Assembly: GCA_017610385.1 (NCBI GenBank)
Contig: JAFCCC010000005.1
Location: 1 to 39,313 of the forward strand
Direction: 5' to 3'
Source of the DNA: Candidatus Nanohalarchaeota archaeon
GTDB taxonomy: Archaea > Nanohalarchaeota > Nanosalinia > Nanosalinales > JAFCCC01
Length of the DNA: 39,313 nt
Both the position numbers and the translations under genes were made by a program. Below, piece after piece: positions 7,368 through 27,808 of this stretch. The notes under the pieces are model-generated. The model ran no database searches. It was not told the DNA's origin and was given only the letters and a program-made list of their open reading frames with translations. Within the stretch, counting starts at the first letter, position 1. The number at the start of each line of letters is the position of its first letter.

Positions 7368-7508
7368 GTTTGCTGGGATAAACTCATAAGGGGTTCAATT
7401 ACACAAGATAAGTTTTATCTTCTGCACTTTCCATAAAGTAAAGTTAGCTAGAAGAAGGTATCCTGTATCCAGATTAATTATTAAATACAGAACAATCAAT
7501 TAATCATA

Positions 7509-11113: not shown

Positions 11114-13184
11114 TTTCTTCCTCTACATTATCAAATGCTTGTTTTATTAAATTTAACACAGAATCCAATTCTTCAAAATTGCTGATTTTTACTTCTGTGT
11201 CTCCATTTCCCCACTTTCCTTTGCCTGAAACATCTCTGCATTTTTCTTGTGGATCTTTTATTTTTTCAAATGGTATGTTTAATGAAAGACTTAGAGCTTT
11301 TTTCTGAGGAATAATATCAACAAAATTTGTTGATGATTTATAAGCTATATACAGTTTTTGCGGTTCTTCTTTAACAGACGAGTCAATATTCAATATTCTT
11401 TTTCTCAATTCATTAAAGAGAGGGTGCATTGGTTCCCCATCTCTTAAATATTCATGATCTTCGATTGTATATTTCTGTTTTGGTTCTTCTTCGGTTTTGT
11501 ATTTTTCTAACGTTTCTGCTTCAACAGAAGGATAACTCCATATTTCTTTTGCTATATTTATAATCTCTGATGCTCTTTTCTTTATTTCAGTTTCGCTCCA
11601 TTTCTCTAATTGGGCTAATCCTCTGTTTATTCTTATTGGGCTGTCCTTGAATCCTCCTTTCATATCTCTTTTTTCTTTGAAAGGTTTATCGCTTAATTCA
11701 GGATTATAACCGGTTAAAGTGAGATTTCCAATAGTATGAAGATATGTTTTCTGTATTTCTTTCCAATTTTCTCCTAAATCTTCTTTCCATTGTTCAGAAA
11801 GCTTTGGGTTTTGAGGCATAATATGTTCAATAGTATATGATTCTACATCAACAAATTCCTTTCTGTCATGATTCTCAAGCTTTCTTAAGATATAATTCCT
11901 ATTTCTAAAATGGTAAATCTCTTTTATTTGAAGCTCTTTTTGAAATTCTTCATCATCAGGTATTCTTCTGTATGAATCTTGCAGAACAATAATTGCCTTT
12001 ATGCTCTCAAGATAGTTCTCTTTATCTACTTTTTTGTATAATGTTGAAAAAGTTTTGTTTAAAGAATTTGTAGGCACTCCACAAATTGCTCTTCTAAATA
12101 CATAACTTTCAATCACTCTGAGAATTTCGATAAATTGCTCTTTTGTTATCTTTTTATTAGCATAATCATGATAAACACTAAGTATAAATGGATATGAAAC
12201 ATCCACTTTTAACTCGTTAATGTCCGCAAAAGCACTTCTTATATCTTTATCTGGTTCTTTTTCCAATGAGAAGTTTACATAATATTTGGAAAACTTATGC
12301 AGATCAACAACTAATTCTTTTATTGAGCTGAATTTTTTTGAGAATAGCTTGAATGCTTGATATACTTCTTTTATCTTTGGGATCTTATTTTCTTTCATGA
12401 TTAAATAAGACCTTACAAAGAAGTCAAATTCAGCTGTAAATGCTGATTGTCTGAAGTCCTTTTCCATTTCAAACCAGTACTTATTGTATAGTTCTTCCTG
12501 CTCGCTTTTTTCCAATCCCATCAAAATGTAATTTCTGATTAAATCTGCTTGCGTTAGTTCAAGTCCTGTGGAGTTTAAGCTCTCAAAGATTAACTGCGGA
12601 TTGTCTTTTTCTCTATCCAAAGAAACATCAATTATGATTAATTTTGATAGACCTTTGTAGATAGTGTTTAAATCAGCTTTTGCAATCTCGTCCTTAAAGA
12701 AATCATAATTCTCTTTTATCCTTAAAGAATCTTCATTAGTTAAATCAAGATTATCTAATATTTTGAATAATGCAGTTTTATCGCTTTTTGTAAGAATTAA
12801 TTTATATTTATCTTCTCCTTCTTCATTGTCATTCATAAGATAATAGTTTGATAATTTTTTGGGGTTTAATTCTGTTTGAGTACTATTTTCTGTTATGTGC
12901 TTGCATAATGCTGATATCAGTAAGGATAATGTAGTTAATCTTTGCTGACCGTCAATTACTAAGAGCTTTGGGAGTGTTGAAACTTGGTATAATCCTTTTT
13001 CAACATAAACAACAGAACCAATAAAATGTCCTGAAATAGAATCATCTTCTCCAGCTTTGATAATATCTTTCCATAACTGCTTGCATTCTTTTTCTTTCCA
13101 ACTATATGTTCTTTGATAGATTGGAATAACCAATTGTTTCGGTGAATTCAAAAACCGTAAAAAATTAACTTCTTTAGCTTCCAT
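11103..13184 (-). CDS. DUF262-DUF1524 GmrSD-like restriction protein inside the hsd operon
   Basis: The 693-residue protein carries the DUF262 (GmrS) NTPase-like motifs IPIYQRTYSW (20-29) and VIDGQQRLTTL (76-86). It then has a DUF1524 (GmrD) HNH-type nuclease with EHIMPQ (His454) and GNLTLTGYN (from about 486). A C-terminal DUF5655-like region reads like a small conserved fold (IPFEKIKDP, GKGKWGNGDTEV). GmrSD-type enzymes are modification-dependent: they cut DNA carrying modified, for example glucosylated, cytosine. The gene begins in a TAATG overlap with the hsdS stop and overlaps hsdR by 11 bp, so it is an integral operon member. It probably guards against modified DNA that escapes the type I enzyme; that pairing is inference. 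Confidence 0.88.
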   Translation of the reverse strand: MEAKEVNFLRFLNSPKQLVIPIYQRTYSWKEKECKQLWKDIIKAGEDDSISGHFIGSVVYVEKGLYQVSTLPKLLVIDGQQRLTTLSLLISALCKHITENSTQTELNPKKLSNYYLMNDNEEGEDKYKLILTKSDKTALFKILDNLDLTNEDSLRIKENYDFFKDEIAKADLNTIYKGLSKLIIIDVSLDREKDNPQLIFESLNSTGLELTQADLIRNYILMGLEKSEQEELYNKYWFEMEKDFRQSAFTAEFDFFVRSYLIMKENKIPKIKEVYQAFKLFSKKFSSIKELVVDLHKFSKYYVNFSLEKEPDKDIRSAFADINELKVDVSYPFILSVYHDYANKKITKEQFIEILRVIESYVFRRAICGVPTNSLNKTFSTLYKKVDKENYLESIKAIIVLQDSYRRIPDDEEFQKELQIKEIYHFRNRNYILRKLENHDRKEFVDVESYTIEHIMPQNPKLSEQWKEDLGENWKEIQKTYLHTIGNLTLTGYNPELSDKPFKEKRDMKGGFKDSPIRINRGLAQLEKWSETEIKKRASEIINIAKEIWSYPSVEAETLEKYKTEEEPKQKYTIEDHEYLRDGEPMHPLFNELRKRILNIDSSVKEEPQKLYIAYKSSTNFVDIIPQKKALSLSLNIPFEKIKDPQEKCRDVSGKGKWGNGDTEVKISNFEELDSVLNLIKQAFDNVEEENGN

Positions 13185-14470
13185 TATGCAACAGCCTCCT
13201 TTACATCAACCTTTCCAGTCACAACATGATGGATTAATGATGTTTTATACTCTTCCCTGAGATTAAACTTTTCTTGGATTTTATTAATTGTTTGGTCAAT
13301 CTTTGAAGTTTCTTTGTCTAAATATTCAACTATTTGGAATTGTTCTTTTTTTGGTGGAACAGGCAACTTAATATTTGAAAGAGTAGTAGGATCTGCTCTT
13401 GGCATCTTCACTCCGTAAGTGAGTGAATTTACATAGTCTATATATCCTTTAGAAATTAGTCTATATTTTAGAAATAAAGGTAAGACTTCCTTAGCTTCAT
13501 AAACAATGATTTCTGTACTGCATACACCTCTATCTTGTGTTATTACAACTTTTACTAAATATGGTCTTAATTTTCCAAAGAGTACATTATTTTCAGTAAA
13601 TGTTAATGTGTCTCCATCAACATCATTAGAATTTCCATATTTTTTTAGTTTTCCAGTTTCAGACTCAATATGTTCAAGTCCAATATATTTCTTGTTTTCT
13701 GCATCTTTAACTTTATTTTTCTTTTCATTTGCAAAGAATTTTAACTTTTTAACTTCCCAACCATCAGGAATATCTCCAATCCAGTCAATCCCAGAATCTT
13801 TCATCTTTGCTTTAGGATCAAGCCCTTTTGTCACAACATGATTAATGAGAGCTGTTCTTTTTTCTTTCAAGAGTTCAATCAATTCCTTGTCTTTTTCGAT
13901 AGTTTGGTCTATTTTTGAGGTCTTTGAATCGAGGAAAGAGGTTATAGCTTCTTGTTCTATTTTTTGAGGAAATGCACAAAAAAGATTTACAATATCCTCT
14001 TTATTAATACCTGCTTGCGCACCACCAGTTTGATGTAGTAAAATTTGTTCTCTTTGAGATAAAAGATAGTAAAAAACATACTTTGAATTTGTTTTTCTAT
14101 TTGGTTGAATTCCAATTACTGACTGGTTTGCTGTAGCTCTAAAAGTTAAATATCCAATATTTGCACAAGTAGCTCCAGTTAAAGCTACTAAAACAGAGTC
14201 CTTTTTGATCCATTTAGCTGAACTTTTTGATAATCCTTCTAAAGTAATAAATGTGGTCACTTCATTTTCATGGATTGACTTATCATGCACCCTTCCAGAA
14301 GGAAGCCAAGGAATCTTTCCATCCCAAAAAGCAGTATTTGTAGTATCGGGAGTCCCTCCAGCAATCGAAATAGAAAAATGTTTAACTTTTTTTACTTCCC
14401 ACTCTTCTGGGATCTCTCCAATCCATTGGATTCCTGAATCTTTGTATTTTAGATAGGGTTTGAGTTTCAT
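13184..14470 (-). CDS. hsdS: Type I restriction specificity subunit
   Basis: The 428-residue HsdS has the usual two-fold design. Each half starts with a near-identical cap (KDSGIQWIGEIPEEWEVKK near 10 and KDSGIDWIGDIPDGWEVKK near 223), followed by a target recognition domain and a coiled-coil spacer ending in INHVVTKGLD or IHHVVTGKVD. The two target domains (roughly 30-165 and 245-385) differ, so a bipartite asymmetric DNA target is expected. The protein bridges two HsdM copies and sets specificity for both methylation and cleavage. The ATGA overlap with the upstream gene and the TAATG overlap with the downstream gene show tight coupling. Confidence 0.95.
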   Translation of the reverse strand: MKLKPYLKYKDSGIQWIGEIPEEWEVKKVKHFSISIAGGTPDTTNTAFWDGKIPWLPSGRVHDKSIHENEVTTFITLEGLSKSSAKWIKKDSVLVALTGATCANIGYLTFRATANQSVIGIQPNRKTNSKYVFYYLLSQREQILLHQTGGAQAGINKEDIVNLFCAFPQKIEQEAITSFLDSKTSKIDQTIEKDKELIELLKEKRTALINHVVTKGLDPKAKMKDSGIDWIGDIPDGWEVKKLKFFANEKKNKVKDAENKKYIGLEHIESETGKLKKYGNSNDVDGDTLTFTENNVLFGKLRPYLVKVVITQDRGVCSTEIIVYEAKEVLPLFLKYRLISKGYIDYVNSLTYGVKMPRADPTTLSNIKLPVPPKKEQFQIVEYLDKETSKIDQTINKIQEKFNLREEYKTSLIHHVVTGKVDVKEAVA

Positions 14471-16131
14471 TTTGAAATGCCTCCAAAATGAGTTTCAATA
14501 TATTCATACTGCTTTTTCCCAGAAAGCTTATCTGTTGCAGGATTTGTTCTCACATAAAATTCTTCATCTTTTCCTAGAAATACTGGTTTTTTACTTGGTT
14601 TACATTCAAAGTGTAATACTTTCTTATCTTCAACTGAAATTATTTTATAATTAATCAAGTCATAGAATTCAGGACCAAAATCTCTTTTAATTAAATTCTT
14701 CACATGTTTTAGAATATCATCATTAGATTCAAAATCATCATTGTTCAAGCCCAGTATTTCTCCTTCATCATTAACACCAACTAATAAAATTCCCCCTGCT
14801 GAATTCATAAAACCAGCAATATTTTTTAGTGTCGCCTTTTCAATTACTGAATCTGGAACGCCTTCTTTTTCAATTGATTTTCTTAAAGTTGATTTAAATT
14901 CTAAAGTTTTACTTTCTCCTTCTCTAATTAATGATAATATTTTATCTGAATCTTTTAACATATCTAAAGAATCAAGCATACTAGTTAAATCCTTTTCAAT
15001 AGATTCAACACTTTTTGGATTTAGAGCGATTTCCTCTTCAAACGAATCTATTTTTAATTTTAGTTGATTCAACTTTCTATCAGATTCAATTACCTTATTT
15101 TGTAGTTCTATAGAAGGTACAGAAACTAATAAGTTTTCAACATCGGCCTTGTTTATGTGAGGAATTACTGTACCAGAAAAAAGGCTCTTTAAATTTAATT
15201 TTCCTATTTTTGAATTAAAAAATAATGATAAATATTCTGATTTAACTAAATTCTTATCTAAAACAATTTGTATAAGATTCTGATGTTTAACTGAAACTTT
15301 TTTTAAATCAGAGGTAGTTTTTAAAGTCCCAACTTTTGGAATATAGATTGAATTATCTTTTTCATCTACTCTATTTCTTATATTAATTTCATTAGATAAT
15401 TCTTTCAATGAATATTTTTTAAAATCTTTGTATAATTTTGATAATTTATCTAATTGTTTAGAGATTTTGTATTTCTCAAAACCTCTAAAATTAGTATCCA
15501 GAAACATACCTTCCGCTAGACTAACCGAGTTTCCCTTATTTTTATTTTCTAAAACTCTATTTATATCACTATTCTCTTCAATTTCTGCTACAAAAATTTT
15601 ATTCTTTTTTTCTTTAGAGATAACAACAATTATTGGTCTCAAGCCGGTGGCAGGTTTTAATATATTTTCAGGAATGTTAAAAACACTTTCAATGTAAAAT
15701 CCTCTCTTATTAAGCAAATCAATAAAATTAGCTCCAGTTTGAGAATTTAATAGTAATGGCTCAACTAAATAAATACCCTTGCCATTTTCAGATAAGTTGT
15801 ATAAAGATCTTAAAATAACAATCCAATTTTTTCTTTCTTTTATATCAATATTTTTTTTAGGATTTTTGTACTCTTCCTTCATCCAGCCAAAGGGTAAGTC
15901 TCCTACGATTAAATCGAAATTTTGTTTTAATCCATCTAATAACAAAAGAGGATCACCATATTTTATTTTTTCGTTCTCTCCTTTTTCATGAATCTTAAAA
16001 ATTAAATCTGCTTCATTATCTAGCTTTGAAAATAAACTAAATTCAGATAGATCCATTAACAATGTTTTATGTAAACTCCATTTTTCTTTAATTGCCAGTA
16101 CAAATTTAGATAGTTCCATCTTATTCAACAT
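14467..16131 (-). CDS. Fusion of a methylase-like domain, HsdS-like TRD and AlbA_2 (Schlafen-type) domain
   Basis: This 554-residue protein sits between hsdM and hsdS. Residues 1-200 follow the second half of an N6-adenine methylase: FDLIVGDLPFGW (72-83) occupies the place of motif IV (NPPY), followed by a LRSLYNLSENGKGIYLVEP strand-helix. There is no SAM-binding motif I, and NPPY is changed to DLPF, so catalysis looks lost. Residues 240-375 resemble one HsdS target domain with its spacer (FSGTVIPHINKADVENLLV, then coiled coil). Residues 400-530 are an AlbA_2/divergent AAA-4 domain (GESKTLEFKSTLR; NSAGGILLVGVNDEGEILG), also the core of Schlafen nucleases and of many defence regulators. It may be a methylase-derived DNA sensor, an alternative specificity subunit or an RNA/DNA-acting effector. 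Overlaps of 11 bp with hsdM and 4 bp with hsdS tie it to the operon. Confidence 0.75.
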   Translation of the reverse strand: MLNKMELSKFVLAIKEKWSLHKTLLMDLSEFSLFSKLDNEADLIFKIHEKGENEKIKYGDPLLLLDGLKQNFDLIVGDLPFGWMKEEYKNPKKNIDIKERKNWIVILRSLYNLSENGKGIYLVEPLLLNSQTGANFIDLLNKRGFYIESVFNIPENILKPATGLRPIIVVISKEKKNKIFVAEIEENSDINRVLENKNKGNSVSLAEGMFLDTNFRGFEKYKISKQLDKLSKLYKDFKKYSLKELSNEINIRNRVDEKDNSIYIPKVGTLKTTSDLKKVSVKHQNLIQIVLDKNLVKSEYLSLFFNSKIGKLNLKSLFSGTVIPHINKADVENLLVSVPSIELQNKVIESDRKLNQLKLKIDSFEEEIALNPKSVESIEKDLTSMLDSLDMLKDSDKILSLIREGESKTLEFKSTLRKSIEKEGVPDSVIEKATLKNIAGFMNSAGGILLVGVNDEGEILGLNNDDFESNDDILKHVKNLIKRDFGPEFYDLINYKIISVEDKKVLHFECKPSKKPVFLGKDEEFYVRTNPATDKLSGKKQYEYIETHFGGISK

Positions 16132-18139
16132 CTTCCTTTATCAACTCTTGAATCTCAGCAGTTACTTTCTTAATATCCGCTTCAATCTCTTCCAAAGGTC
16201 TTGGCGGGACATACTTGTAAAAATACTGGGTGAAGTTTATTTCATAGCCTATCTTGTCTTTTTTCCTGTCCATCCACGCATCAGAATAGTAAGGTTTTAC
16301 TTCTTTTTCAAAATATTCTTCGATGTCTTGCTTTAATGGGATCTTCTCTGAATCTCTTAGTGCAGAATCTGGTTTCTTCTTTCCTTTATTGTCTGTAACA
16401 TACTCAGCAGTTTCATCAGGCTCAGATAAAGCAAGAATAATATTCTTGATAAAAGCAGGAGTTAATTTTATGCCTTTCAAAGCTTCGGTAATCTTGTCTT
16501 CAAATTCGTCCCAATTCTTATATAATGATGAACCGATTGTTTTCAAAGCACGGATAATCTCATCTTGTTTCTTCCGTCCTTCTTCCTCTTCTTTTAGTTT
16601 TTCATCAGGATTTTCTTTTTTACTTTCAGCCAATTTTGAAAATCCCTTATAGGCATATAAATTCTCAAGTCTTTCTTCATTAACACAGAAATTTAGTTGT
16701 AACGGTCGTTCAACGGTTACTTTAGTATATCCAAAGTCTTCATTATCAAATATTTTTACATTTTTAGAATTGCTAAATTTCTTATAATATTCAAGAATTT
16801 CTTTAAGGTCATCCTCTGTTAAATATTGTCTTTTGTAACCCAGACTTCTACGCATTTTCTTGAATTTGGACGTTGCATCAATTAACTGGATTTTTCCAAT
16901 TCTTTCTGTTGGTTTATCGTTTGTTAAAACCCAAACATAGGTTCTAATGCCCGTATTATAGAATAATTGACCCGGTAATGCAATAATGGCTTCTACATAA
17001 TCACTTTCGATCATCCATTTTCTAATATTGCTTTCTCCTTGTCCTGCATCACCTGTGAATAATGGAGAGCCATTTGTAATAACTGCAATTCTTGACTTTT
17101 CTTTAGTTTTCATCTTAGAAAGCATATGTTGTAAAAATAATAATTGTCCATCATTTATGCGTGGTAAACCTGCCCCAAACCGGCCTTCAAAACCTCTTTC
17201 TGCCTCTTTTTTTACTTCGTTTTGATCTGCTTCCCATTTGGTCCCATAAGGTGGATTCGATATTATAAAATCAAATTTTTCATTTTTGAACTGATCATCA
17301 GACAAGGTACTTTTAGGACCCTTAATGTTATTGGATTCTTCTCCCTTTATCAACATATCTGCCTTGCAAATTGCGTAAATTTCCTCATTCAATTCTTGAC
17401 CAAATAATACCGTTTCAATAGAATCGTTCATCCGTCTAATGAATTCTTTACAACTAGTAAGCATCCCTCCCGTACCACACGCAGGATCATAAATTGTTTT
17501 AATAAGGTTTTTTTCAGATAAATGAACCCCATTTTCAATAAAAATCAATTTAGTCATCAAACCCACCACATCTCTAGGCGTAAAATGTTCTCCCGCCTCT
17601 TCATTAGATTGTTCTGCAAATCTCCGGATCAATTCCTCAAAGATGGTGCCCATTTCATGATTGGATACTACTTCAGGATGTAAATCTACTTTTGATTCAG
17701 AAAATTTCTTAACAAGCAAAAATAAAAGATTTGCTTTTGCCAATCTTGCAATGTGATTTTTTAAATAGAAATTTTCAAAAATATCTTGAACATTCTTACT
17801 AAATCTATCTAGATAATGCATTAAATTTTGTTCAATATGTTCTGGATCTTCAAGTAATGTTTTGAAATCGTACCTAGAATAATTATAAAATCCAAGGGGT
17901 CTTCCCTTTTTGTCTTTTGCAGCAGTTTGCAAAACGTGTTTTAAATTTTCAAATTGGTCTTTGTATTTGTTATATGCTTCCAAAACTTGAGATTTAGAAT
18001 CACTTAAAACCGAATCGAATCTTTTTAAAACAACAAAAGGAAGTATAACTTTCTGGTATTCATTGCGTTTATAGGTGCCCCGCAATAAATCTGCTAAGTC
18101 CCAAATGAATGTTATTTTTTCTTGAAAATTGTTTTTCAT
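16121..18139 (-). CDS. hsdM: Type I restriction DNA methyltransferase subunit
   Basis: This N6-adenine methylase of 672 residues has the HsdM N-terminal helical domain (IWDLADLLRGTYKRNEYQKV, an hsdM hallmark), SAM motif I YDPACGTGGM (217-226) and catalytic motif IV NPPYG (295-299). The C-terminus is longer than usual, with a charged EEEEGRKKQDE segment and PPRPLEEIEADIKKV near the end. With HsdS it methylates the target in host DNA. I chose the Met at 18139 because residues before it (from 18196) read MFHNPLKRIFLF and lack family similarity. It is the first gene of a five-gene overlapping operon of about 10 kb. A TTTAAAAA box lies roughly 45 bp upstream of the start. Confidence 0.93.
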   Translation of the reverse strand: MKNNFQEKITFIWDLADLLRGTYKRNEYQKVILPFVVLKRFDSVLSDSKSQVLEAYNKYKDQFENLKHVLQTAAKDKKGRPLGFYNYSRYDFKTLLEDPEHIEQNLMHYLDRFSKNVQDIFENFYLKNHIARLAKANLLFLLVKKFSESKVDLHPEVVSNHEMGTIFEELIRRFAEQSNEEAGEHFTPRDVVGLMTKLIFIENGVHLSEKNLIKTIYDPACGTGGMLTSCKEFIRRMNDSIETVLFGQELNEEIYAICKADMLIKGEESNNIKGPKSTLSDDQFKNEKFDFIISNPPYGTKWEADQNEVKKEAERGFEGRFGAGLPRINDGQLLFLQHMLSKMKTKEKSRIAVITNGSPLFTGDAGQGESNIRKWMIESDYVEAIIALPGQLFYNTGIRTYVWVLTNDKPTERIGKIQLIDATSKFKKMRRSLGYKRQYLTEDDLKEILEYYKKFSNSKNVKIFDNEDFGYTKVTVERPLQLNFCVNEERLENLYAYKGFSKLAESKKENPDEKLKEEEEGRKKQDEIIRALKTIGSSLYKNWDEFEDKITEALKGIKLTPAFIKNIILALSEPDETAEYVTDNKGKKKPDSALRDSEKIPLKQDIEEYFEKEVKPYYSDAWMDRKKDKIGYEINFTQYFYKYVPPRPLEEIEADIKKVTAEIQELIKEDVE

Positions 18140-18327
18140 TGTACCGAACTGCCTCTGAGAGAATAAAAATATTCTTTTTAAAGGATTATGAAACAAACTT
18201 AATATTTGTAACTCTTAATCACACCCATCGTTACCCCTTACCTTTTATCCACCCAAAAAGGTAATTTAACTACTTACTAACTTGCAGATAAGGAATTATT
18301 GCCTGAAAGTGTGCTGGTTTTTGCGGA

Positions 18328-18690
18328 TTAAGAAGTGGATGTGAGATTCTGCCTTATCTGATCCTTCAAATTTTCTTCAATCCTCGTCACAAGATTTTTA
18401 GAAATAACTTCATTCGCTTCGTACCAATCCAACCCGGACTTTAATAAATAAGCTAAAACAACGGCATTACTTCTAGACATACCACCACGACAAACAACTA
18501 TTACTTTTTTTCCTTTTTTCAGAGCCTTTTCAACTAATTGCACTTTACTCATGAATTGACCCCAATTATCCTGATACCCATCAATAAGATCCCAAACAAT
18601 AATAAATTCTATTTCAGGATTTTCTTTAACACGAAGGCTCTCGTAATTGTAATAATTGCAAGTTCCGAGGTTTTCATTGTACCAGAACAT
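18328..18690 (-). CDS. Dual-specificity-phosphatase-like protein
   Basis: The 120-residue protein ends a compact phosphatase fold with VVCRGGMSRSN: Cys67 and Arg73 form the CX5R P-loop, followed by Ser74 and a long helix. Asp34 or Asp37 in VWDLIDG could be the general acid. The usual His before Cys is Val here. It should remove phosphate from Tyr/Ser/Thr or from RNA or phosphoinositide-like substrates; I cannot choose. It lies just upstream of the hsd operon on the same strand. A decayed copy of its last ~50 bp occurs at 27899-27950 on the other strand, so this gene has been duplicated or moved before. Confidence 0.7.
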   Translation of the reverse strand: MFWYNENLGTCNYYNYESLRVKENPEIEFIIVWDLIDGYQDNWGQFMSKVQLVEKALKKGKKVIVVCRGGMSRSNAVVLAYLLKSGLDWYEANEVISKNLVTRIEENLKDQIRQNLTSTS

Positions 18691-18713
18691 AATAAATAAT
18701 TCGTTATGAAATT

Positions 18714-19013
18714 TTAAATGTTCTTCACAACTACGCTATTTTTTTCTCGGTTAAGTATGTTATCAATAACCCAATATTTGTAATTTCCTATGTTCAGATA
18801 GAGATACGAATTACTTCTAAATTTTCCAGAATATCCTTCTTGATCTATACGTGCCTTGAAATCATCAAATAATTTCTTATCAGACTTAGAAAGTACATTC
18901 CTAACAATATATTCGTGCGGGGTCTCCGGCATCGTTTTTGCAAAAGTCCAAGTATTTTTACTTATAAGTTCCTTGCATTTATCTAAAGAAAATTCTTGGA
19001 GAGTTTTATTCAT
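18714..19013 (-). CDS. Small conserved protein with FAKTMPxxPHEY motif
   Basis: This 99-residue soluble protein contains WTFAKTMPETPHEYIVRN at about residues 22-39, then a mostly helical middle and a beta-like SYLYLNIGNYKYWVIDN segment. I recognise the FAKTMPxxPHEY pattern as recurring in small bacterial and archaeal proteins of unknown role but cannot assign a function. It is 23 bp upstream of the phosphatase and 6 bp downstream of a PD-(D/E)XK nuclease gene on the same strand, so the three are likely co-transcribed. Confidence 0.6.
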   Translation of the reverse strand: MNKTLQEFSLDKCKELISKNTWTFAKTMPETPHEYIVRNVLSKSDKKLFDDFKARIDQEGYSGKFRSNSYLYLNIGNYKYWVIDNILNREKNSVVVKNI

Positions 19014-19019
19014 TTTAAC

Positions 19020-19601
19020 CTATTTGAACAACTTTTCAAAATTATTGCAATAAAACTGTATTCCTTCGTCTTCACACGCTTTTTTTGCTATTTCTTTTGC
19101 TTCTATTATTCGTTTTGTTATGTCTTTCCGCTTCGTTAACCATCTTACTATAAAAACAAAATGTGCACTTTTTATTTTCTCTGTATTTAACAACTCTGTA
19201 AGTCGCTCAATATCCTTTTTCAATCTAATTTCCAGATTTTTGTCGGCCCCGCCAATATTTATTTTTATTTCAATTGCATCTTGAAGTCTAACGGAGCTAT
19301 AACCTTTTTTTTCAGGAGATTTGAAAACAAGCCAATTTGTATCTATTTTTGAAATTTCATCTTTGTCAAAAACAACAATATCGATTCGTCCGCCTTCTCC
19401 GGCAAAATATTCTTGATGAACAAGATTTGTTAGATATTCCTTCCCGTTACAATCAAAGAGTCCTAATTTATGTTTAGTATCATATTCTTTCAAAAGTTCA
19501 GAATAAATAAGCCCTTGTATGTCTGATTCGCTATTAAAAATAAACGGGGTTTGATTAATTGTTTCAATTACACGAGTTATGGCTTCTTTTGTTTCTTCCA
19601 T
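19020..19601 (-). CDS. PD-(D/E)XK nuclease-like protein
   Basis: The 193-residue protein shows a restriction-endonuclease-like core: an N-terminal helix with acidic residues (SESDIQGLIYSELL, Glu25/Asp27), GRIDIVVFD (Asp74) and AIEIKI (Glu111, Lys113). A helix-rich tail follows, then HFVFIVRW. This is the D-(E)xK signature of nucleases used in restriction and repair. No DNA-recognition domain is evident. It is flanked by two small unknown genes in the same orientation and may be the catalytic member of a small defence module upstream of the type I operon. Nuclease activity is inferred from motif order only. Confidence 0.6.
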   Translation of the reverse strand: MEETKEAITRVIETINQTPFIFNSESDIQGLIYSELLKEYDTKHKLGLFDCNGKEYLTNLVHQEYFAGEGGRIDIVVFDKDEISKIDTNWLVFKSPEKKGYSSVRLQDAIEIKINIGGADKNLEIRLKKDIERLTELLNTEKIKSAHFVFIVRWLTKRKDITKRIIEAKEIAKKACEDEGIQFYCNNFEKLFK

Positions 19602-19625
19602 ATTTGCTGCCTCAGTACAAAAGCC

Positions 19626-19883
19626 TTACTGGGAATTTTTGTGCTTAGTTACTTGCACCCTCACGTTTCTAAGATATTTTTGATTATCTTCATTGAAATG
19701 AATCTTTACGGCATGAAATGCTGCTCTTGAAGTAGTTTTATTGATGCCTTGTTCTTCCATAATTTTGCAGAATGTGTTTTCCTCATCTAACTCTATCAAA
19801 ACCCCATTCCCTTTCTCTATCATATGTTTGTTTAAGAACTCTAAGATACTTTCCCAATACGCTAGTTGGTTTTCTTCATCCAT
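19626..19883 (-). CDS. Small unknown protein
   Basis: The 85-residue soluble protein MDEENQLAYWESILEFL... has acidic N-terminal helices, a central CKIMEEQGINKTTSRAAFHAV that could be helix-turn-helix-like, and a basic C-terminus (RVQVTKHKNS). I do not recognise a family. It is the first gene of a same-strand run with the PD-(D/E)XK protein 24 bp downstream. A small DNA-binding or antitoxin-like partner would fit that place, but this is a guess. Confidence 0.5.
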   Translation of the reverse strand: MDEENQLAYWESILEFLNKHMIEKGNGVLIELDEENTFCKIMEEQGINKTTSRAAFHAVKIHFNEDNQKYLRNVRVQVTKHKNSQ

Positions 19884-19975
19884 AAAATGAAATTACCTTT
19901 TAGTTCTAATAAATCTACTTTTTTCAGCCATTATGCATTTAAGATTTTGAGACTACACATATACTAGTGAGTGTA

Positions 19976-20146
19976 GTGGATAAAGAAGATAAACAGGCTT
20001 TATGGGTTCTTAGTGGTCTAGCTCTTCTAGCATGGCTTTTGAGTAGAAAGCACGGAAAATGTCCAAGATGTAGTTATCCTGTTACCTCTAGAAACCCTCA
20101 TTGTCCGAATTGTGGTCAAGAATTAGACTGGGGGAGATTTGAATGA
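19976..20146 (+). CDS. Small membrane-anchored zinc-ribbon protein
   Basis: A 56-codon frame starts at GTG 19976 (an in-frame GTG at 19967 is an alternative) and ends at TGA 20144-20146. It encodes one hydrophobic segment (residues 8-23, ALWVLSGLALLAWLLS) followed by a double-CxxC zinc ribbon with Cys29, Cys32, Cys43 and Cys46 (CPRC...CPNC). The stop overlaps the next start as ATGA, so the two are translated together. Membrane zinc ribbons of this size are common in archaea without a known role. The clear Cys pattern makes coding likely despite the shortness. Confidence 0.65.
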   Translation: MDKEDKQALWVLSGLALLAWLLSRKHGKCPRCSYPVTSRNPHCPNCGQELDWGRFE

Positions 20147-20400
20147 AAAAAGTACCAAAAAAGATTTCACCACGGGAAACAGCTTTGTCTTGGATATATA
20201 GCTTAATGTGTCTTTTATTGTCCTTAATTTTGGTATTTTGTGCACTTCATTTGTTGAATTATTATATTTACTGCATCAGATTTAATGGATTTTTTAGTAC
20301 AGAAACAATAAAGACGGCCGTTTATCTCATAATTGGATCTTTTTTTGTATTATTTATTAATAGGGATCAAACAAGAAAAATTTTTAAAAGAACCGTCTAA
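20143..20400 (+). CDS. Two-helix membrane protein
   Basis: The 85-residue protein has a basic start (MKKVPKKISPRET), one long hydrophobic helix (about 17-43), a second around 60-75 and a basic tail (RDQTRKIFKRTV), so both ends probably face the cytoplasm. No family is recognised. It overlaps the zinc-ribbon gene by 4 bp and is followed by another membrane protein gene, suggesting a three-gene membrane cluster inside the proposed element. Confidence 0.55.
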   Translation: MKKVPKKISPRETALSWIYSLMCLLLSLILVFCALHLLNYYIYCIRFNGFFSTETIKTAVYLIIGSFFVLFINRDQTRKIFKRTV

Positions 20401-20443
20401 TTTCAATGGATTTTGCACCAAAATAACCAAACGTTTTTAAATT

Positions 20444-21637
20444 TTGGAGAGAGTAGTATTCATACTCAGTCTATTTTCTGGGGCATACACGATGATAAAA
20501 GGGTACTTTTTGATTACAGTAGAATCTTTGATTACTATATCTCTTTTAATTTTAAATTCCTTTTTCTTGCGGGTGGAAAAATATAAATTAATTATTGGTT
20601 GGGTTATGTTTGCCTTATTGGCTGTAGATGTAGCACTAAAGCTATTTAACAAAATTAAAAGTAAGCGTAGAGAAAAGAAGTTAAAAGAAGACAAGGAACA
20701 AAGATGGGAAAAACGGAACAAAGATTTTAAGATAATTAAACAACAGTTACGTGAACAAAAACAACATTATACCGTTTATAAAGATAAACAAGAGAAAGAT
20801 CTTAAAACACTAAATAAATTCTTTTCAAAAAGTTTATTAAATGAAAAGGATGTGTTAAAGTTAGCAAAGTCGGACCAATATTTTGCACTTTATGTGTATA
20901 GTTGGCCTTTCCCCACGATAAAAGATTATGCTTTCAAAACTAAAAGACAGTATCCAATACTACTGAAAAGTTTGGGATTTATTAGGATGGGTAAAGTAAG
21001 TTCATTCTTCATGATAAATAAGACTAAACTAAAACTAAAAAAATTGCAGAATATAGTTGAATTTAAAAGATTTTTAAATAAAACATTAGAAGATGTCAGA
21101 AAAGAGGAGTTTACACTTTATTTAAAAGAAGCTAAAGATCATGACGAAAAACTATATTCAGAGTGCCTTTCAAAGGGTTACAAAAATTATCTAAAAATAA
21201 ACTATCTATTATTTGAAAACATAATTCATCCAGGGAACATTGGTTTCGTTGATGGAGAATTTATTGGTTTAAACAGTAAAAAAATAAATCAAGATCTGGC
21301 GCAGGAGATTTTGGGGGGTATTGATCTAGCAAAAATTAATCTTGATAAAAATACCAAACTCAAAATTAAAGAATACTTTAAAGAACAAGATTTTGACATT
21401 TTACTTGAAGAGGTAGATCAAAAAACAGTTGAATTAATTTCCACTAACCGGGACAAAATAAAATCAAATTTGGGACTGGGCACCATTCTTGACATAGGGA
21501 CTAAAACGTTAGAAGATATTGAAAACATTTTATGCTCAATTGGTGTAAAAAAATACAAAAATGTTGCCTTAAACCTAAAAGATGATGCAAAAAATTATCA
21601 AGAAGCATTGGAGCGTTTGCGCATACAGTTTAACTAA
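20444..21637 (+). CDS. Membrane-anchored coiled-coil protein of unknown function
   Basis: The 397-residue protein has two or three N-terminal hydrophobic segments (within 3-55), then a strongly charged helix likely to form a coiled coil (residues 66-125, KSKRREKKLKEDKEQRWEKR and on), then a mixed alpha/beta domain. A C-terminal part, LGTILDIGTKTLEDIENIL, resembles a helix-hairpin-helix-like segment. The start used is a TTG. A TATA-like TTTTTAAA at 20433 would place transcription after it, so ATG 20492 (MIKGYFLITV) is a serious alternative. No family is recognised. It could be a cytoplasmic-facing sensor or effector of the element. Confidence 0.55.
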   Translation: MERVVFILSLFSGAYTMIKGYFLITVESLITISLLILNSFFLRVEKYKLIIGWVMFALLAVDVALKLFNKIKSKRREKKLKEDKEQRWEKRNKDFKIIKQQLREQKQHYTVYKDKQEKDLKTLNKFFSKSLLNEKDVLKLAKSDQYFALYVYSWPFPTIKDYAFKTKRQYPILLKSLGFIRMGKVSSFFMINKTKLKLKKLQNIVEFKRFLNKTLEDVRKEEFTLYLKEAKDHDEKLYSECLSKGYKNYLKINYLLFENIIHPGNIGFVDGEFIGLNSKKINQDLAQEILGGIDLAKINLDKNTKLKIKEYFKEQDFDILLEEVDQKTVELISTNRDKIKSNLGLGTILDIGTKTLEDIENILCSIGVKKYKNVALNLKDDAKNYQEALERLRIQFN

Positions 21638-21710
21638 AAAAACTTGAATACGGACTTATTTCTAACTGAAACCAAACAATTGAAAATAGTATTCGGTTGT
21701 TATTTTGAAC

Positions 21711-22361
21711 TCATTTATCTTGTGGCTTTCTAGTTATCTTATATTCTTTTCTCCATCGCCCCATAGATGGATAAATTAAAATTTTAATTCTCTCTTTAAA
21801 CGCATGATCTTCGTCTGCAGTTAATCGTGCAGGGTACAATTTTATGATATATTTTTTAGAAAGACTCTGTAAAGCTCCTGATAGAGATTTAAATTCTATT
21901 TTTATAGATAATCTCAAAAGTAGCTCACGAGCACTAATACTCCACCGCATTCTGGGAATTGGTACAGACCATTCTTGACCAGTGTCTTTGTCGTTATAAT
22001 ATTGCTCAGGAGATATTTTTTCACTAAATGCTAATTTTCGTTTTTCTAAAATCTTAAATAATCTTTCTTTCAACTCAATAAATTCCATTTCTTTAGAGTT
22101 TAAATCTACACCAACATACCGCCCAAGCAAAAACCTTTCTTTATTCCAAGTCAAATAAAACTCAAAATTTAGATCTTTTGCAGGCAAATTGCCCACATTT
22201 TCTAAATTCAAATCTAATTCTGAATTAAGATCTAATTTTAAGAGCGGTACGTTTTGAATTCTAAGTTGGTCTACCATTCGTTTATTTTGAAAAGCATAAT
22301 ATCCTGTAACTAGAATCAGTACGAAAGCGAGACTCGCATTCACCCAAGAGGTGGCGTCCAT
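21711..22361 (-). CDS. Single-pass membrane protein of unknown function
   Basis: This 216-residue protein has one N-terminal membrane helix (about 6-24, WVNASLAFVLILVTGYYAF) followed by a cytoplasmic or external domain with beta-like segments (LLKLDLNSELDLNLENVGNLPAKDLNFEF). The layout recalls the widespread small proteins that follow a TM helix with an Ig-like beta domain, but there is no signature I can name. It is convergent with the coiled-coil membrane protein gene and read away from the KTSC-like gene. Confidence 0.55.
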   Translation of the reverse strand: MDATSWVNASLAFVLILVTGYYAFQNKRMVDQLRIQNVPLLKLDLNSELDLNLENVGNLPAKDLNFEFYLTWNKERFLLGRYVGVDLNSKEMEFIELKERLFKILEKRKLAFSEKISPEQYYNDKDTGQEWSVPIPRMRWSISARELLLRLSIKIEFKSLSGALQSLSKKYIIKLYPARLTADEDHAFKERIKILIYPSMGRWRKEYKITRKPQDK

Positions 22362-22456
22362 AATCCTTCTTTTGATTTAAAAGATTAAATATGCGCGCAG
22401 ATAAAACTAAATATCTCATACCCAGTATGCAAACTAAATTAAAATTAATGATAACT

Positions 22457-22726
22457 TCAGGATTTATCAAATGAGTGTCTTACATAAAGATTGATATATC
22501 TGTGTAACCCACTACCGGCAATTGCAAGTTCATGCATCTGATTAATTTTTGATTTTTCAATCTTTTTTGTAGAGTATGTAAACAGTTTCGAATCTTTTAA
22601 GAATTTAACACAGATAAAATCTTCACCCAGTTCATAACTCTCTATTCCAGAAGTTCCACTAAGATTTTTATATTTCTCCATAAGTACTTTTTGTTGAATA
22701 ATCTTTTTACGCATTTCGGCTTCCAA
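22457..22726 (-). CDS. Small KTSC-like protein
   Basis: The 89-residue protein has a lysine-rich helix, then VKFLKDSKLFTYSTKKIEKSKINQMHELAIAGSGLHRYINLYVRH. Strand-strand-helix followed by an Ser-Gly and Tyr-Ile-Asn segment resembles the KTSC fold found in phage and mobile-element proteins, but the match is loose. An upstream 190-bp gap carries a pair of imperfect direct repeats that could control it. Confidence 0.5.
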   Translation of the reverse strand: MEAEMRKKIIQQKVLMEKYKNLSGTSGIESYELGEDFICVKFLKDSKLFTYSTKKIEKSKINQMHELAIAGSGLHRYINLYVRHSFDKS

Positions 22727-22819
22727 TTAAACTTCTCAGGGCTTTCTCTTAGTCGCTTTTTCGATACCCGGACTTTACTTCTAAACTGCAAATTTGATAA
22801 CTTAAATTACACACAAAAT

Positions 22820-22903
22820 CATGTACTTTTATTCAATAAACAAGTTATCCCACAACAAAAATAGTTTAGTCATAAAAACATGTATTTTTACTCAAGAAAC
22901 AAC
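22820..22903. repeat. Pair of imperfect 25-bp direct repeats
   Basis: CATGTACTTTTATTCAATAA (from 22820) and CATGTATTTTTACTCAAGAA (from 22879) share most positions over about 25 bp and are spaced 59 bp apart. They lie between the end of the integrase gene and the start of the KTSC-like gene. They may be regulator-binding sites or recombinase accessory sites. Confidence 0.45.
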
Positions 22904-22921
22904 TCAATATTTTTCATACAT

Positions 22922-24376
22922 CTATTGCTCTTGTTGACCTTCCCAAATACGCTTGGAGATCTTCTGTAACTCTTGCGGATCGATTTCTCCGTTAATAATT
23001 CCCGTCATAATCTCTTGGAACATTTCTCCGTATTTCTTGCTTTTCTTCTGGAATTCCATCGCCGTCTTTTGGGATAATGGCCTTCGGCAATTCCAGCATA
23101 AACTTCTGTCTCCTGAATTAGTACTGCCACATACACCACAAACAATGCTCTCTTTTTTGTTATCTTTGATCTCGTATCCGTACAATTCACTTAGTACGGT
23201 TTTATCGGTTCTGCTATCATTCATATGAATATAAGTTCCGGGAGTTCTCGAGCCTTGGGCCCAACCAAACATAGAACACATTGTTGCTTCCCCTAATCCA
23301 CTTTCCGCAACAATAGAGGCTCTACGATGTCTGAAATTATGACAATATATTTTACTTGAATCTATTCCTGCTTGTTTGGCCTTAGTTTTAAGAAGCATTC
23401 TTAACGCAGAATAATTCAACGGCTCCCAATCTTTTGCTTTAAAATTACCGCAAGTTGCTTCAAAGGGATATTCACTATTTTTTAATTGATATCTTCCGTC
23501 CTTCACCTTTTCAAATACGCCTTGTTTGATCAAACTATTCTTCTTGTCATATAACAAGTATTTAACGACCCTTTGCGAAAGGCCGGAAATCTTTGCCAAA
23601 TGTTCCACACTCCAAAGCACGTCTCTTCGATTTGCCACAAAGGAAAGTAGAAGGTCTCTGGAATGCTCTCTCTGAGTTTTGCCACAATGTACGCAAGTAG
23701 TCCGTTGTACTTTGATGAATAATGGTGCATCAGGATCTTTTGGACTTAGTGGATCTCCTCCAGCAGGATGTTCTGCGATCCAATTTAGTAAATCTCTAAC
23801 ACACTTAACAACTCTAACAGATCTGATTTTTGTTTTACTTTTGGAAATTGTAATCTTTGCTCCATACTCGTCAAAAATAATATCTCCTAGTTTGATAGAT
23901 AATAATTCAGCTGCCCTGAATCCAGATTCTTCCAATAAAGAAATAATTAATCTTGAACGACTATCGTAACAAACAGAAAGTAATTTTTGAATATCTTCTT
24001 CTGTAGGCATGTCAGATGGAATTTTAGAATTCTTAGCTTTCTTCATTGATTTAAAAACACGTGTTTTACGTGGGAAATCTTCTCCGTCTCCTTCCATCAC
24101 TTTGTAGAATTTTCTGATGGCCACTCTGTAATCATATTTAGTATTTTGAGCATATTTTGACTGATTAATATTATACGCCAAGCGTTCTAATTCTTCTTGA
24201 GTAGAATCAATTAATTTAAATTCAGGATTCATTAATTTGCGAATTGCATTAAAAGAAACTTTGTATTTTTTTATTCTTATTTCACTTAAACCTTCAACAC
24301 TACATTTGTGTAAAAATCTATTTACAGCTCTATCATTTTCCCATATAACGTCTACGACCATTATATTCGACCCCAT
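22922..24376 (-). CDS. Tyrosine recombinase (integrase) with zinc and winged-helix insertion
   Basis: The 484-residue protein has an N-terminal SAM-like core-binding domain (20-110) and a catalytic domain with Arg154 (SGFRAAEL), a beta-hairpin Lys near 180-184, HNFR (His346, Arg349), Trp372 (GWAQGS) and Tyr382 (TYIHM). These are the residues of a tyrosine recombinase that cuts and rejoins DNA through a 3'-phosphotyrosine. Between the Arg and His boxes is an unusual insert (225-315): CVHC plus His238, then a winged-helix-like stretch (SVEHLAKISGLSQRVVKYLL). The C-terminus has a zinc ribbon (Cys413, 416, 427, 430). The gene begins 55 bp from the 3' end of tRNA-Thr and reads away from it, the classic place for an element-borne integrase. 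Confidence 0.9.
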   Translation of the reverse strand: MGSNIMVVDVIWENDRAVNRFLHKCSVEGLSEIRIKKYKVSFNAIRKLMNPEFKLIDSTQEELERLAYNINQSKYAQNTKYDYRVAIRKFYKVMEGDGEDFPRKTRVFKSMKKAKNSKIPSDMPTEEDIQKLLSVCYDSRSRLIISLLEESGFRAAELLSIKLGDIIFDEYGAKITISKSKTKIRSVRVVKCVRDLLNWIAEHPAGGDPLSPKDPDAPLFIKVQRTTCVHCGKTQREHSRDLLLSFVANRRDVLWSVEHLAKISGLSQRVVKYLLYDKKNSLIKQGVFEKVKDGRYQLKNSEYPFEATCGNFKAKDWEPLNYSALRMLLKTKAKQAGIDSSKIYCHNFRHRRASIVAESGLGEATMCSMFGWAQGSRTPGTYIHMNDSRTDKTVLSELYGYEIKDNKKESIVCGVCGSTNSGDRSLCWNCRRPLSQKTAMEFQKKSKKYGEMFQEIMTGIINGEIDPQELQKISKRIWEGQQEQ

Positions 24377-24380
24377 ATAT

Positions 24381-24405
24381 CGTAAGAATTCTCACGCTTA
24401 AATAT
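24381..24405 (-). promoter_or_regulatory. Integrase promoter with operator-like palindrome
   Basis: On the minus strand a TATA-like ATATTTAAG (24397-24405) is followed by CGTGAGAATTCTTACG (24381-24396), a 16-bp palindrome with a single mismatched pair. The start codon at 24376 lies about 25 bp from the TATA centre, so the message is probably leaderless. The palindrome sits between box and start, a natural place for a repressor. Confidence 0.45.
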
Positions 24406-24428
24406 GTGGGGGCTACGAAAACGTACAG

Positions 24429-24442
24429 TTAAGCCCCGAGAG
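24429..24442. other. Candidate tRNA-proximal attachment core
   Basis: TTAAGCCCCGAGAG spans the 3' acceptor strand of tRNA-Thr plus two flanking bases and is repeated exactly at 3619-3632 in the same orientation. Confidence 0.5.
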
Positions 24443-24524
24443 AGATTCGAACTCCCGACCTGCTGCTTACAAGGATCGACCAGTATAAACTGTCAGCCGC
24501 TCTGGCCAGCTGAGCTATCGGAGC
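24432..24524 (-). tRNA. tRNA-Thr (TGT) with a short intron
   Basis: Read on the minus strand, the acceptor GCTCCGA pairs with TCGGGGC, followed by discriminator T (usual for archaeal tRNA-Thr). The D arm is GCTC/GAGC and the T arm is GGGAG-TTCGAAT-CTCTC. Removing 19 nt (plus-strand 24475-24493) restores the anticodon stem GCTGC/GCAGC and loop CTTGTAA, anticodon TGT, and a 74-nt mature tRNA. The intron then falls at the fourth/fifth base pair of the anticodon stem (30/31) rather than the canonical 37/38. The exact splice points may shift by a base. CCA is not encoded. The gene is the likely target of the adjacent integrase. Confidence 0.85.
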
Positions 24525-24881: not shown

Positions 24882-25739
24882 TCATAATAATGCTTGGAAT
24901 TCCTCTAAAACTTCTTTTTTAGTTAAGGAACAATTTGGATATAAATAAGGTAATGGAGAAAATTCCTCAGACTCTACGGTTTCAAGATCTTCTATTGTTT
25001 TCCCAGAAACAAGAGCTTTAATCTCCAATAAATTAATCAAATTTCCAAGATCCTTCCTTTTAGATTCTACGACTTTTATATCCGGATCAAACTCTTTTAA
25101 AATTTCTACAAATTTCTTTTGTCTTCTAGAAATATATTTGAAAGATATTGGATAAATCCTACATCCTCGCTTCATCATTAAAATTGAGGAATAAATATCA
25201 AACTTAGTTTCAAGCAAAGAGAAGATATTACCTTCAATTCCGACGGGAAGTCCGCCGATACAACTTATTTTTTCTGTAAAAATAAAAGATTCTTTATTTC
25301 GAATTTCAATATTAATCCATAAATCTGGATTTGTTAAATCAACTTTCAAATTTAACTTTGTTCTAATCAAATCACCAAGTTTAATTGCAATATCTCTACT
25401 AGAGAATTCATGTGTTCCTGCACGAGTGACTTTTAATCCAAATGTTTTTGGTTTCTTTTCTATTACAAATTTATAACAAACTTTGAATAAATCTTCTAAG
25501 TCTATTGTTGTTTTTTTACAAACAGAAAAAGAAACAATTCCAGGGGTTTTCTTTATTTTTTCAATTATCTTTTCAGTATTGATTTTATAATCAATGTAAA
25601 TTCTACTAAATTCGCATTTAACAGAACAGTTTAATTCATTTAACTGCCTTTTTAAATTCTCAACTAATTTTTTTTCGAACTTTTTCTTAACTTTTGGGCT
25701 CTTTAAACCTAATTCTCCATATCTTGCTAAAATCAACAT
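24882..25739 (-). CDS. ThiI-like THUMP protein with degenerate PP-loop
   Basis: The 285-residue protein follows ThiI (tRNA 4-thiouridine synthase): an N-terminal ferredoxin-like domain (ARYGELGLKSPKVKKKFEKK, from residue 5), a THUMP RNA-binding domain (about 60-155) and the start of the ATP-pyrophosphatase domain (GGLPVGIEGN, 162-171; MMKRGC, 188-193). Between these, the ATP-binding PP-loop SGGxDS is replaced by ETKFDI (about 177-182), so adenylation of tRNA should not work. There is also no rhodanese domain, as in archaeal ThiI. It may be a non-catalytic tRNA-binding relative or a gene in decay, although the frame is intact. A GC-rich palindrome and TATA box lie 25-55 bp upstream. Confidence 0.75.
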   Translation of the reverse strand: MLILARYGELGLKSPKVKKKFEKKLVENLKRQLNELNCSVKCEFSRIYIDYKINTEKIIEKIKKTPGIVSFSVCKKTTIDLEDLFKVCYKFVIEKKPKTFGLKVTRAGTHEFSSRDIAIKLGDLIRTKLNLKVDLTNPDLWINIEIRNKESFIFTEKISCIGGLPVGIEGNIFSLLETKFDIYSSILMMKRGCRIYPISFKYISRRQKKFVEILKEFDPDIKVVESKRKDLGNLINLLEIKALVSGKTIEDLETVESEEFSPLPYLYPNCSLTKKEVLEEFQALL

Positions 25740-26776: not shown

Positions 26777-26798
26777 GTGTTTGCACCAAATTGTAAAG

Positions 26799-27749
26799 GT
26801 GTTTCCTCTAGAAAATTATCTTGAAAATCTTGATCAAGAAATAAGAATATTTGGTGTAAATAAAATTCTAATGCAATTCCATAAAAAACATGGACAAGAA
26901 GTTATTGATAAATTACAAGAAACAATTCATATCTCGACATATTACAACTGGCTTTCTGGAAAAAGTCCAATACCTATAAAATTTATTAGAGCTTTCGCAA
27001 AATATGATCCAAACATATTAGCTAAATGTTATAACGAAATGACATATCTATCTGTATCAAGAAAAAAATGTATTTTACCAAAAAGTATGACTAGGAAACT
27101 TGCATATCTTATAGGCGTATTAAATGGAGACGGGCATATGCACAAAAATAGAAAATATTTTACAATAACAGTAGATTCTTTAGATTATATTCACAAAATA
27201 TTATTGCCTCATATTCGAAATCTTTTTGAATGTGATGGATACATTAATCACTTTGAAAATTACTATCGATTAGATATAGGTAGCAAAGTAATCCATTCTT
27301 TTTTGTCACTATTCTGTCCAGTAGGTAAAAAAACAGGGAAGTTATATGTACCAACCCTAATCAAAGAAAATAAAGAATTTTTGAAGGAATATTTGTGTGG
27401 TTTATTTGATACAGATGGATGTATTGGGTATGGTAAGAAAAAGAAAAATTTGTATTTCGTATTTGTCCAATCAGATAAAAAATTTGTCTTTGAGATCCAT
27501 CAGTGTTTGATTTCTTTAGGAGTTCATGTAAATCTTCCTAGAAAATTTATGTCTCCAGCAAAGCCCTATGCAAAAAGTAGACAATTAGAAGAATGGAGAA
27601 TTTATGTTGGATCTAAAAAAGATCTAAAAGATTTATTGAATATAATTCACTTTAAGCATCCGAACAAAATTAAAAAATCAAGAGAAGTTAAAGGAGAGTT
27701 AGATGGGTTCGGAGAGATTCGAACTCCCGACCTCTTGACCCAAAAGTAA
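26799..27749 (+). CDS. Free-standing LAGLIDADG homing endonuclease
   Basis: The protein of about 316 residues has an N-terminal helical, HTH-like domain (VIDKLQETIHISTYYNWLSG). Two LAGLIDADG helices follow, YLIGVLNGDGHM and EYLCGLFDTDGCIGY, each ending in the catalytic Asp, so a single chain should form the pseudo-dimeric endonuclease. I take GTG 26799 as start because of the TATA box at 26765; TTG 26781 would add six residues. The last 15 codons (GFGEIRTPDLLTQK) are the complement of the tRNA-Val 3' half, so gene and tRNA overlap by 46 bp on opposite strands. It is not inside an intron or intein here. Insertion into, or spread next to, the tRNA gene is inferred. Confidence 0.85.
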   Translation: MFPLENYLENLDQEIRIFGVNKILMQFHKKHGQEVIDKLQETIHISTYYNWLSGKSPIPIKFIRAFAKYDPNILAKCYNEMTYLSVSRKKCILPKSMTRKLAYLIGVLNGDGHMHKNRKYFTITVDSLDYIHKILLPHIRNLFECDGYINHFENYYRLDIGSKVIHSFLSLFCPVGKKTGKLYVPTLIKENKEFLKEYLCGLFDTDGCIGYGKKKKNLYFVFVQSDKKFVFEIHQCLISLGVHVNLPRKFMSPAKPYAKSRQLEEWRIYVGSKKDLKDLLNIIHFKHPNKIKKSREVKGELDGFGEIRTPDLLTQK

Positions 27750-27808
27750 CAGATCACTTTTGGTTCGCCACGTCAAGGCGACGTCATAACCGACTAGACC
27801 ACGAACCC
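27704..27808 (-). tRNA. tRNA-Val (GAC) with a 31-nt intron
   Basis: On the minus strand, the acceptor GGGTTCG/CGAACCC with discriminator A, D arm GTCT...TGAC, anticodon arm TCGCC-TTGACGT-GGCGA (anticodon GAC) and T arm GGGAG-TTCGAAT-CTCTC give a 74-nt tRNA after removal of 31 nt (plus 27734-27764). The intron lies between the anticodon stem and the variable loop (43/44), not at 37/38. It carries its own hairpin (CCAAAAGT/ACTTTTGG). Its last bases GTCAAG are complementary to CTTGAC of the anticodon loop, so the precursor could fold differently. The 3' end overlaps the LAGLIDADG gene. Confidence 0.85.

Follow-up and report, generated by a model that had tools for sequence, protein, structure and literature searches.

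The tRNA-U8 4-thiouridine (s4U8) synthetase ThiI/TtuI is a single polypeptide that forms a homodimer with two active sites in trans (PMC4041423). In T. maritima ThiI the tRNA is held by one subunit and modified in the active site of the other, the dimer is formed mainly through the pyrophosphatase domains and the catalytic cysteine of the C-terminal loop is Cys344 (PMC4041423). Among archaeal ThiI proteins an iron-sulfur class has been defined by a CXXC motif together with a further C (PMC5372739). A shorter archaeal relative, PH1313 from Pyrococcus horikoshii, has a structure that was released in 2005 (1vbk); in the accessible text of a 2023 review it is called "ThiI-like", its activity is given as unconfirmed and no partner is named for it (PMC9957541).

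The window, which is the whole stretch of 39,313 nucleotides analysed here from a Candidatus Nanohalarchaeota archaeon, encodes a ThiI-like protein of which the features are listed in Table 1. We refer to this type of pseudo-ThiI as T and to a stand-alone ThiI catalytic domain as P. The T frame opens with ATG and contains zero internal stops. Both N-terminal domains match their Pfam profiles well above cut-off (ThiI_fer, 68.9 bits against 25; THUMP, 53.1 bits against 20.6), and T is the sole THUMP match in its genome at E ≤ 0.01. The ThiI pyrophosphatase profile PF02568 gives only a sub-threshold match on residues 169-209 (17.8 bits, cut-off 20.5), and TIGR00342, the profile for ThiI, reaches 149.2 compared to a cut-off of 264.5. 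When T is aligned with fused ThiI proteins, ETKFDI stands at the position of SGGIDS, preceded by the retained GG-LP-VG linker and followed by the retained LMMKRGC helix. T also lacks the segment that carries the CxxC region, as well as the GQVASQT loop and the Cys loop at the C-terminus; hence the pyrophosphatase domain has been shortened, beyond point mutation. Taken alone, T has the NFLD and THUMP domains of a ThiI and lacks SGGxDS, GQVASQT and the equivalent of Cys344. The preliminary description of the gene, as a ThiI-like protein that keeps NFLD, THUMP and the GGLPVG and LMMKRGC context while SGGxDS has become ETKFDI, is thus confirmed.

Table 1. Coordinates of the T gene, its domains and the neighbouring features in the window
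Feature	Position	Strand	Remarks
Putative T subunit gene	24882-25739	-	ThiI-like, 285 aa, ATP-binding PP-loop motif missing
N-terminal ferredoxin-like domain (NFLD)	25524-25733	-	aa 3-72
THUMP domain	25275-25502	-	aa 80-155
Pseudo-pyrophosphatase domain and GG-LP linker	24885-25253	-	aa 163-285; fold retained, active-site loops and C-terminal part gone
ETKFDI replacing PP-loop motif SGGIDS	25194-25211	-	aa 177-182
Putative integrated defence island	4734-24524		adjoins the T gene
GajB/UvrD-like helicase	4734-7367		in putative defence island
Type I restriction-modification genes	8177-18196		in putative defence island
DUF262/Orf5-like gene	11103-13184		in putative defence island
XerA-like integrase	22922-24376		beside tRNA-Ile
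tRNA-Ile	24432-24524		anticodon TAT
LAGLIDADG-type ORF	26781-27749		opposite strand to the tRNA gene that it overlaps
tRNA gene	27704-27808		105 bases, probably with an intron

The stretch that adjoins the T gene looks like an integrated defence island. Its tRNA-Ile carries the anticodon TAT, here in an archaeon; in most archaea AUA is described as being read by a modified CAU anticodon. The other tRNA gene was recognised by an Rfam match and missed by ARAGORN. Both tRNA genes carry U at position 8, which is ordinary.

The predicted structure of the window T has a mean pLDDT of 90.2 and a pTM of 0.84. It aligns with full-length ThiI structures with Z scores of 22 to 26, and its residues ~163-285 align with other PP-loop enzymes with Z scores of ~8 to 10. 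The alignment of the model ends at residue 332 of B. anthracis ThiI (2c5s) and at residue 331 of T. maritima ThiI (4kr6), and T therefore lacks the loop that bears the catalytic cysteine. The closest solved structure is that of PH1313, with a match that spans the entire protein (E 3.4e-25; Z 26.1 over 282 residues). Like T, PH1313 combines NFLD and THUMP with a shortened pyrophosphatase domain devoid of SGGxDS, and the two proteins are ~27% identical. The T of one surveyed genome, G054, is a close homologue of PH1313 (E 1.2e-138).

The preliminary description had pointed to a second intact ThiI as something to look for in the genome, which comprises 788 kb in 18 contigs and is 93.5% complete. 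No full-length one was found in a profile search of this whole assembly, and a fused ThiI could possibly have been missed since the assembly is 93.5% complete. What the search did find, as the single ThiI pyrophosphatase domain above cut-off, is a stand-alone P of 212 residues beginning MKILALVSGGIDSPVA (G000:C11:84864-85502, also L001 1498-2136). P has intact SGGIDS, GQVASQT and DK motifs and a Cys at the place of Cys344, and among solved structures it is nearest to the pyrophosphatase domains of ThiI from B. anthracis and T. maritima. No NFLD or THUMP was found on P, which carries no RNA-binding domain. T and P jointly contain every domain of an RHD-less ThiI with the catalytic residues intact, and these domains and their order are the same as in 4kr6 and 2c5s. 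A thiolation enzyme without adenylation chemistry, as T had initially been described, hence fits the T subunit but not the genome, which keeps this chemistry in trans on P. With regard to the iron-sulfur class, this P retains C and the third Cys and shows CxxS for CxxC, as do P proteins of the window's order. The same CxxS, instead of the usual archaeal CxxC, is seen in P of G002, G005, G007 and G013, so that a change of the cluster-binding site known from methanogen ThiI is possible in these proteins.

Profiles of T and P were searched over 140 archaeal genomes, with that of the window among them. ThiI was counted as fused when the pyrophosphatase match shared one frame with a THUMP match, weak matches in G030, G057, G072 and G092 were left out of the ThiI count, and the start of each T was set by rule at the nearest upstream Met. 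The ThiI pyrophosphatase domain was found in 111 of the 140 genomes. Fused ThiI occurs in 78 of them, 73 without P and 5 with it (G032, G083, G094, G114 and G134), while T replaces intact ThiI in 29 genomes, which span 22 family groups by family codes and all of which have a separate P. In another four (G002, G005, G007 and G049) P is present and T was not found. Among these genomes, which are related and many of which are incomplete, the presence of P in 29/29 T genomes compared to 5/78 fused ones gives a Fisher p of 2.3e-21, or of 4.7e-20 when G086, in which a degenerate THUMP protein is present and P was not found, is counted as a counterexample. For independent pairs on the starred branches of the NFLD-THUMP tree, six go the same way, none goes the opposite way and one is undecided (sign test p 0.031).

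Four genomes (G004, G009, G011 and G106) have degenerate ThiI-like paralogues alongside an intact fused ThiI. Given these paralogues, the P-only genomes and G086, T and P are not strictly inseparable, and gaps in the genomes (completeness 75-92%) may explain the P-only cases and G086. Proteins of this more degenerate kind, with remnants of the linker and of the pseudo-domain, lie at loci L207 (G011), L209 (G004), L202 (G086) and L208 (G106). Some fused genomes carry additional ThiI-type matches. In G036 and G058, both of family f14, there are two ThiI-type pyrophosphatase domains per genome, each in a long frame. Among 17 candidate stretches for relatives on viral contigs, 0 were confirmed. 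Within the order of the window's organism, other genomes, such as that of Nanohaloarchaea archaeon SG9, have an intact fused ThiI, and no separate P was found in these fused-ThiI genomes.

The conservation of single residues was then compared, using the numbers of their T. maritima ThiI equivalents as taken from alignments. For trees and residue tables, 43 fused rows (44 with G107) were available out of the 78 fused genomes, the rest being overlapping in-frame matches. The equivalents of Lys17 (Lys13 of the window T, in NFLD), Gly126, Val138 and Gly168 are invariant in 29/29 T, and those of Phe103, Lys109 (as Arg) and Val140 (as Leu) are retained in 28/29. The positions of Arg141 and Lys19 vary among T proteins, which indicates that the contacts are not all kept. 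One of the invariant T residues has a T. maritima counterpart that extends into the active site of the partner subunit (PMC4041423). On the catalytic side, S, the second G, D and S of the PP-loop motif and Lys320 are invariant in 38/38 P, and the Asp319 position is D in 36/38 and N in 2/38. Fused ThiI shows D at Asp319 in 39/44 and K at Lys320 in 44/44, compared to 7/26 and 5/26 in T, where two of the 29 proteins end before Asp319 and one is without the anchor proline. A T-P pair would need the linker from T and Asp319 from P with no reciprocal contact, and the residue pattern matches this arrangement. However, the loss of Asp319 and Lys320 in T could be explained by the loss of catalysis alone as well.

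Purifying selection on T proteins with the same loss, which had been put forward as a check, is borne out by a pair from Thermococcus (L210 and L214). Its pseudo-domain displays a dN/dS of 0.18 (NG86) or 0.12 (YN00), similar to the 0.14 (NG86) or 0.12 (YN00) of the N part. A more distant T pair, G054 and G074, was left out as its pseudo-domain is saturated, and close relatives of the window's organism for the same calculation were looked for in vain. Considering the low dN/dS together with the predicted fold, the dead domain of T seems to be retained as a structural part.

T and P lie apart in 27/29 of the surveyed split genomes, that of the window included. In four genomes the two genes overlap or are adjacent. 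In G100 the order is P-T on one strand and the T start overlaps the P stop (ATGA), in G053 the same order is found on one strand with a gap of 2 bases, and in L210 and L214 the order is T-P with a GTGA overlap.

A careful NFLD-THUMP tree of 72 rows displays 13 changes between the fused and the split state, 7 of which are forced by starred branches, these being counts that do not separate gain from loss. A single T clade is rejected (AU test p = 5.9e-5), which rules out one ancient split. Quick trees needed 12 changes (NFLD-THUMP) or 8 (catalytic domain), and took in T_G130, which was judged to be another THUMP enzyme beside the separate row of that genome's fused ThiI, and P_G107, which is actually a fused ThiI. 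The former was excluded from the careful tree and the latter is counted as fused in the residue table. Hence, the T + P state seems to have arisen repeatedly. In family f10, to which the PH1313 homologue of G054 belongs, genus g23 has fused ThiI and P whereas genus g44 has T and P; in the quick trees the g44 T clusters with the g23 fused ThiI (99*) and the P of both genera cluster together (95*).

Within Thermococcus, the fused + P state is found at MAG loci L211, L212, L213, L220, L221 and L224. At L210 and L214, which are Thermococcus MAG loci too, a T with broken motif is followed immediately by P, and no further ThiI pyrophosphatase match was found in these two genomes. In G031, a near full-length ThiI with broken motif occurs in addition to P. 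Read from the genes, the Thermococcales would thus display the steps of a fused ThiI with a spare P, of T with P and of an overlapping T-P gene pair. Simple gene fission is not favoured as the origin, given that T retains a whole, though shortened, pyrophosphatase domain; duplication of the catalytic domain and then decay fits better.

We propose, with a probability of about 0.8 and on the basis of sequence comparisons, that T is a catalytically dead, tRNA-holding subunit which together with P would form a hetero-oligomeric tRNA-U8 4-thiouridine synthetase. T-P is taken as a two-gene ThiI because the roles split by T and P match the trans division of the ThiI homodimer. T would grip the acceptor stem and the CCA end of the tRNA through NFLD-THUMP and dock on P through the pseudo-pyrophosphatase domain and the GG-LP linker. 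U8 would thereby enter the active site of P, which would adenylate it with ATP and insert the sulfur. The T-P pair would correspond to a single one of the homodimer's two trans sites, with each gene having kept the half that is used there. As for its origin, a copy of the catalytic domain would have taken over in trans while the domain of the parent gene decayed. We infer the complex, its stoichiometry and its s4U8 product alike. Against the proposal weigh the CxxS of P in the window's group, the distant location of the T and P genes in most split genomes, the P-only genomes, G086 and the degenerate paralogues. Furthermore, the ThiI homodimer could break cleanly into an obligate pair because it works through trans active sites, and we regard it as rather probable that it did so several times independently, across 22 of the sampled family groups, with PH1313 counted among the T proteins. 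In the literature searched, which covered few subscription papers, no split U8 enzyme, no T-P pairing and no partner for PH1313 was found described.

The roles first suggested for T were those of a tRNA-binding chaperone, of a regulator or of the partner of a separate catalytic subunit. The last one alone is supported, by the P of the genome and by its recurrence in 29/29; the other two gain nothing from the data. Both would return if P acted alone, as a U8 thiolase or within a different sulfur pathway, for example that of thiamine, with T being an independent tRNA-binding protein. We consider this unlikely. It would accommodate the four genomes in which P is present and T was not found, the five with P beside an intact fused ThiI and the degenerate paralogues that accompany an intact ThiI, but it leaves aside that P is there whenever T replaces intact ThiI, that T and P genes overlap in some genomes and that P is without an RNA-binding domain of its own. 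Moreover, the T residue whose T. maritima equivalent enters the neighbouring subunit's active site (PMC4041423) is invariant. T could instead be the partner of another PP-loop enzyme of the NcsA/TtuA type and serve a different tRNA position, given that the genome does encode one such protein (G000:C10:14479-15015). However, both the survey and the gene order link T to P, and NcsA is described as active on its own and equipped with zinc-finger domains (PMC10067955), which makes this pairing very improbable.

A further possibility is local decay, with T as a nascent pseudogene while the genome loses s4U8. The small size of the genome (788 kb) and the intact fused ThiI elsewhere in the order would agree with this, and intact SGGxDS in sister genomes is indeed what had been named beforehand as speaking for decay. 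It is literally found, yet decay does not follow from it because those genomes have no P and the window's genome does. Against decay, the T frame is open and the tRNA-contact residues are invariant, an intact P is retained, the same state is seen in 28 other genomes and the pseudo-domain of the Thermococcus T pair is under purifying selection; we therefore hold it to be scarcely credible. Likewise, a frameshift hidden in the assembly, the other objection raised at the outset, did not materialise: T is no lone frameshift or chance event since the same loss is present in 28 other genomes of the 140, and in PH1313. On account of this recurrence, each time with P, frameshift and local decay are both rejected. 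Most likely, T and P are a split ThiI, a variant of a known enzyme that has arisen more than once.

The pairing offers a testable function for PH1313, whose structure is known and whose activity is described as unconfirmed in the available part of the review (PMC9957541), as well as for many ThiI-like archaeal proteins without the motif and for short stand-alone ThiI catalytic domains. This function and the recurrence of the split would be of interest to specialists, and the Thermococcales intermediates make the order of events testable. If the pairing is true, a homodimeric tRNA enzyme with trans sites would repeatedly have become a set of catalytic and pseudo-catalytic subunits, and to predict s4U8 from a THUMP-bearing ThiI gene alone, or from a lone catalytic domain, one would have to check both genes.

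Compared to the known systems, ThiI/TtuI has its two trans active sites in a homodimer of one polypeptide (PMC4041423), whereas here two genes are found and one of them is dead. For the PH1313 type a partner is proposed here, while the review, in its accessible text, names none (PMC9957541). Tan1/THUMPD1 is also a THUMP protein that lacks a catalytic domain and serves another enzyme, in that case a tRNA acetyltransferase (PMC9957541). Its reaction differs from U8 thiolation. To our knowledge, Tan1 is without a pyrophosphatase remnant. The eukaryotic U34 thiolase Ctu1/Ctu2 (Ncs6/Ncs2) likewise consists of a PP-loop catalyst and its diverged paralogue, and this pair has been proposed to descend from an archaeal homodimer (PMC10067955). 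Indeed, a catalytic and a pseudo-catalytic homologue are found together in each of the 29/29 T genomes. However, Ctu1/Ctu2 belongs to another PP-loop subfamily, acts on another tRNA position and has zinc fingers and no THUMP; furthermore, both of its proteins share the overall layout whereas here P has lost NFLD-THUMP. If the T-P pairing is true, prokaryotes would repeatedly have gone through a counterpart of the shift from homomeric to heteromeric tRNA enzymes that took place in eukaryotes.
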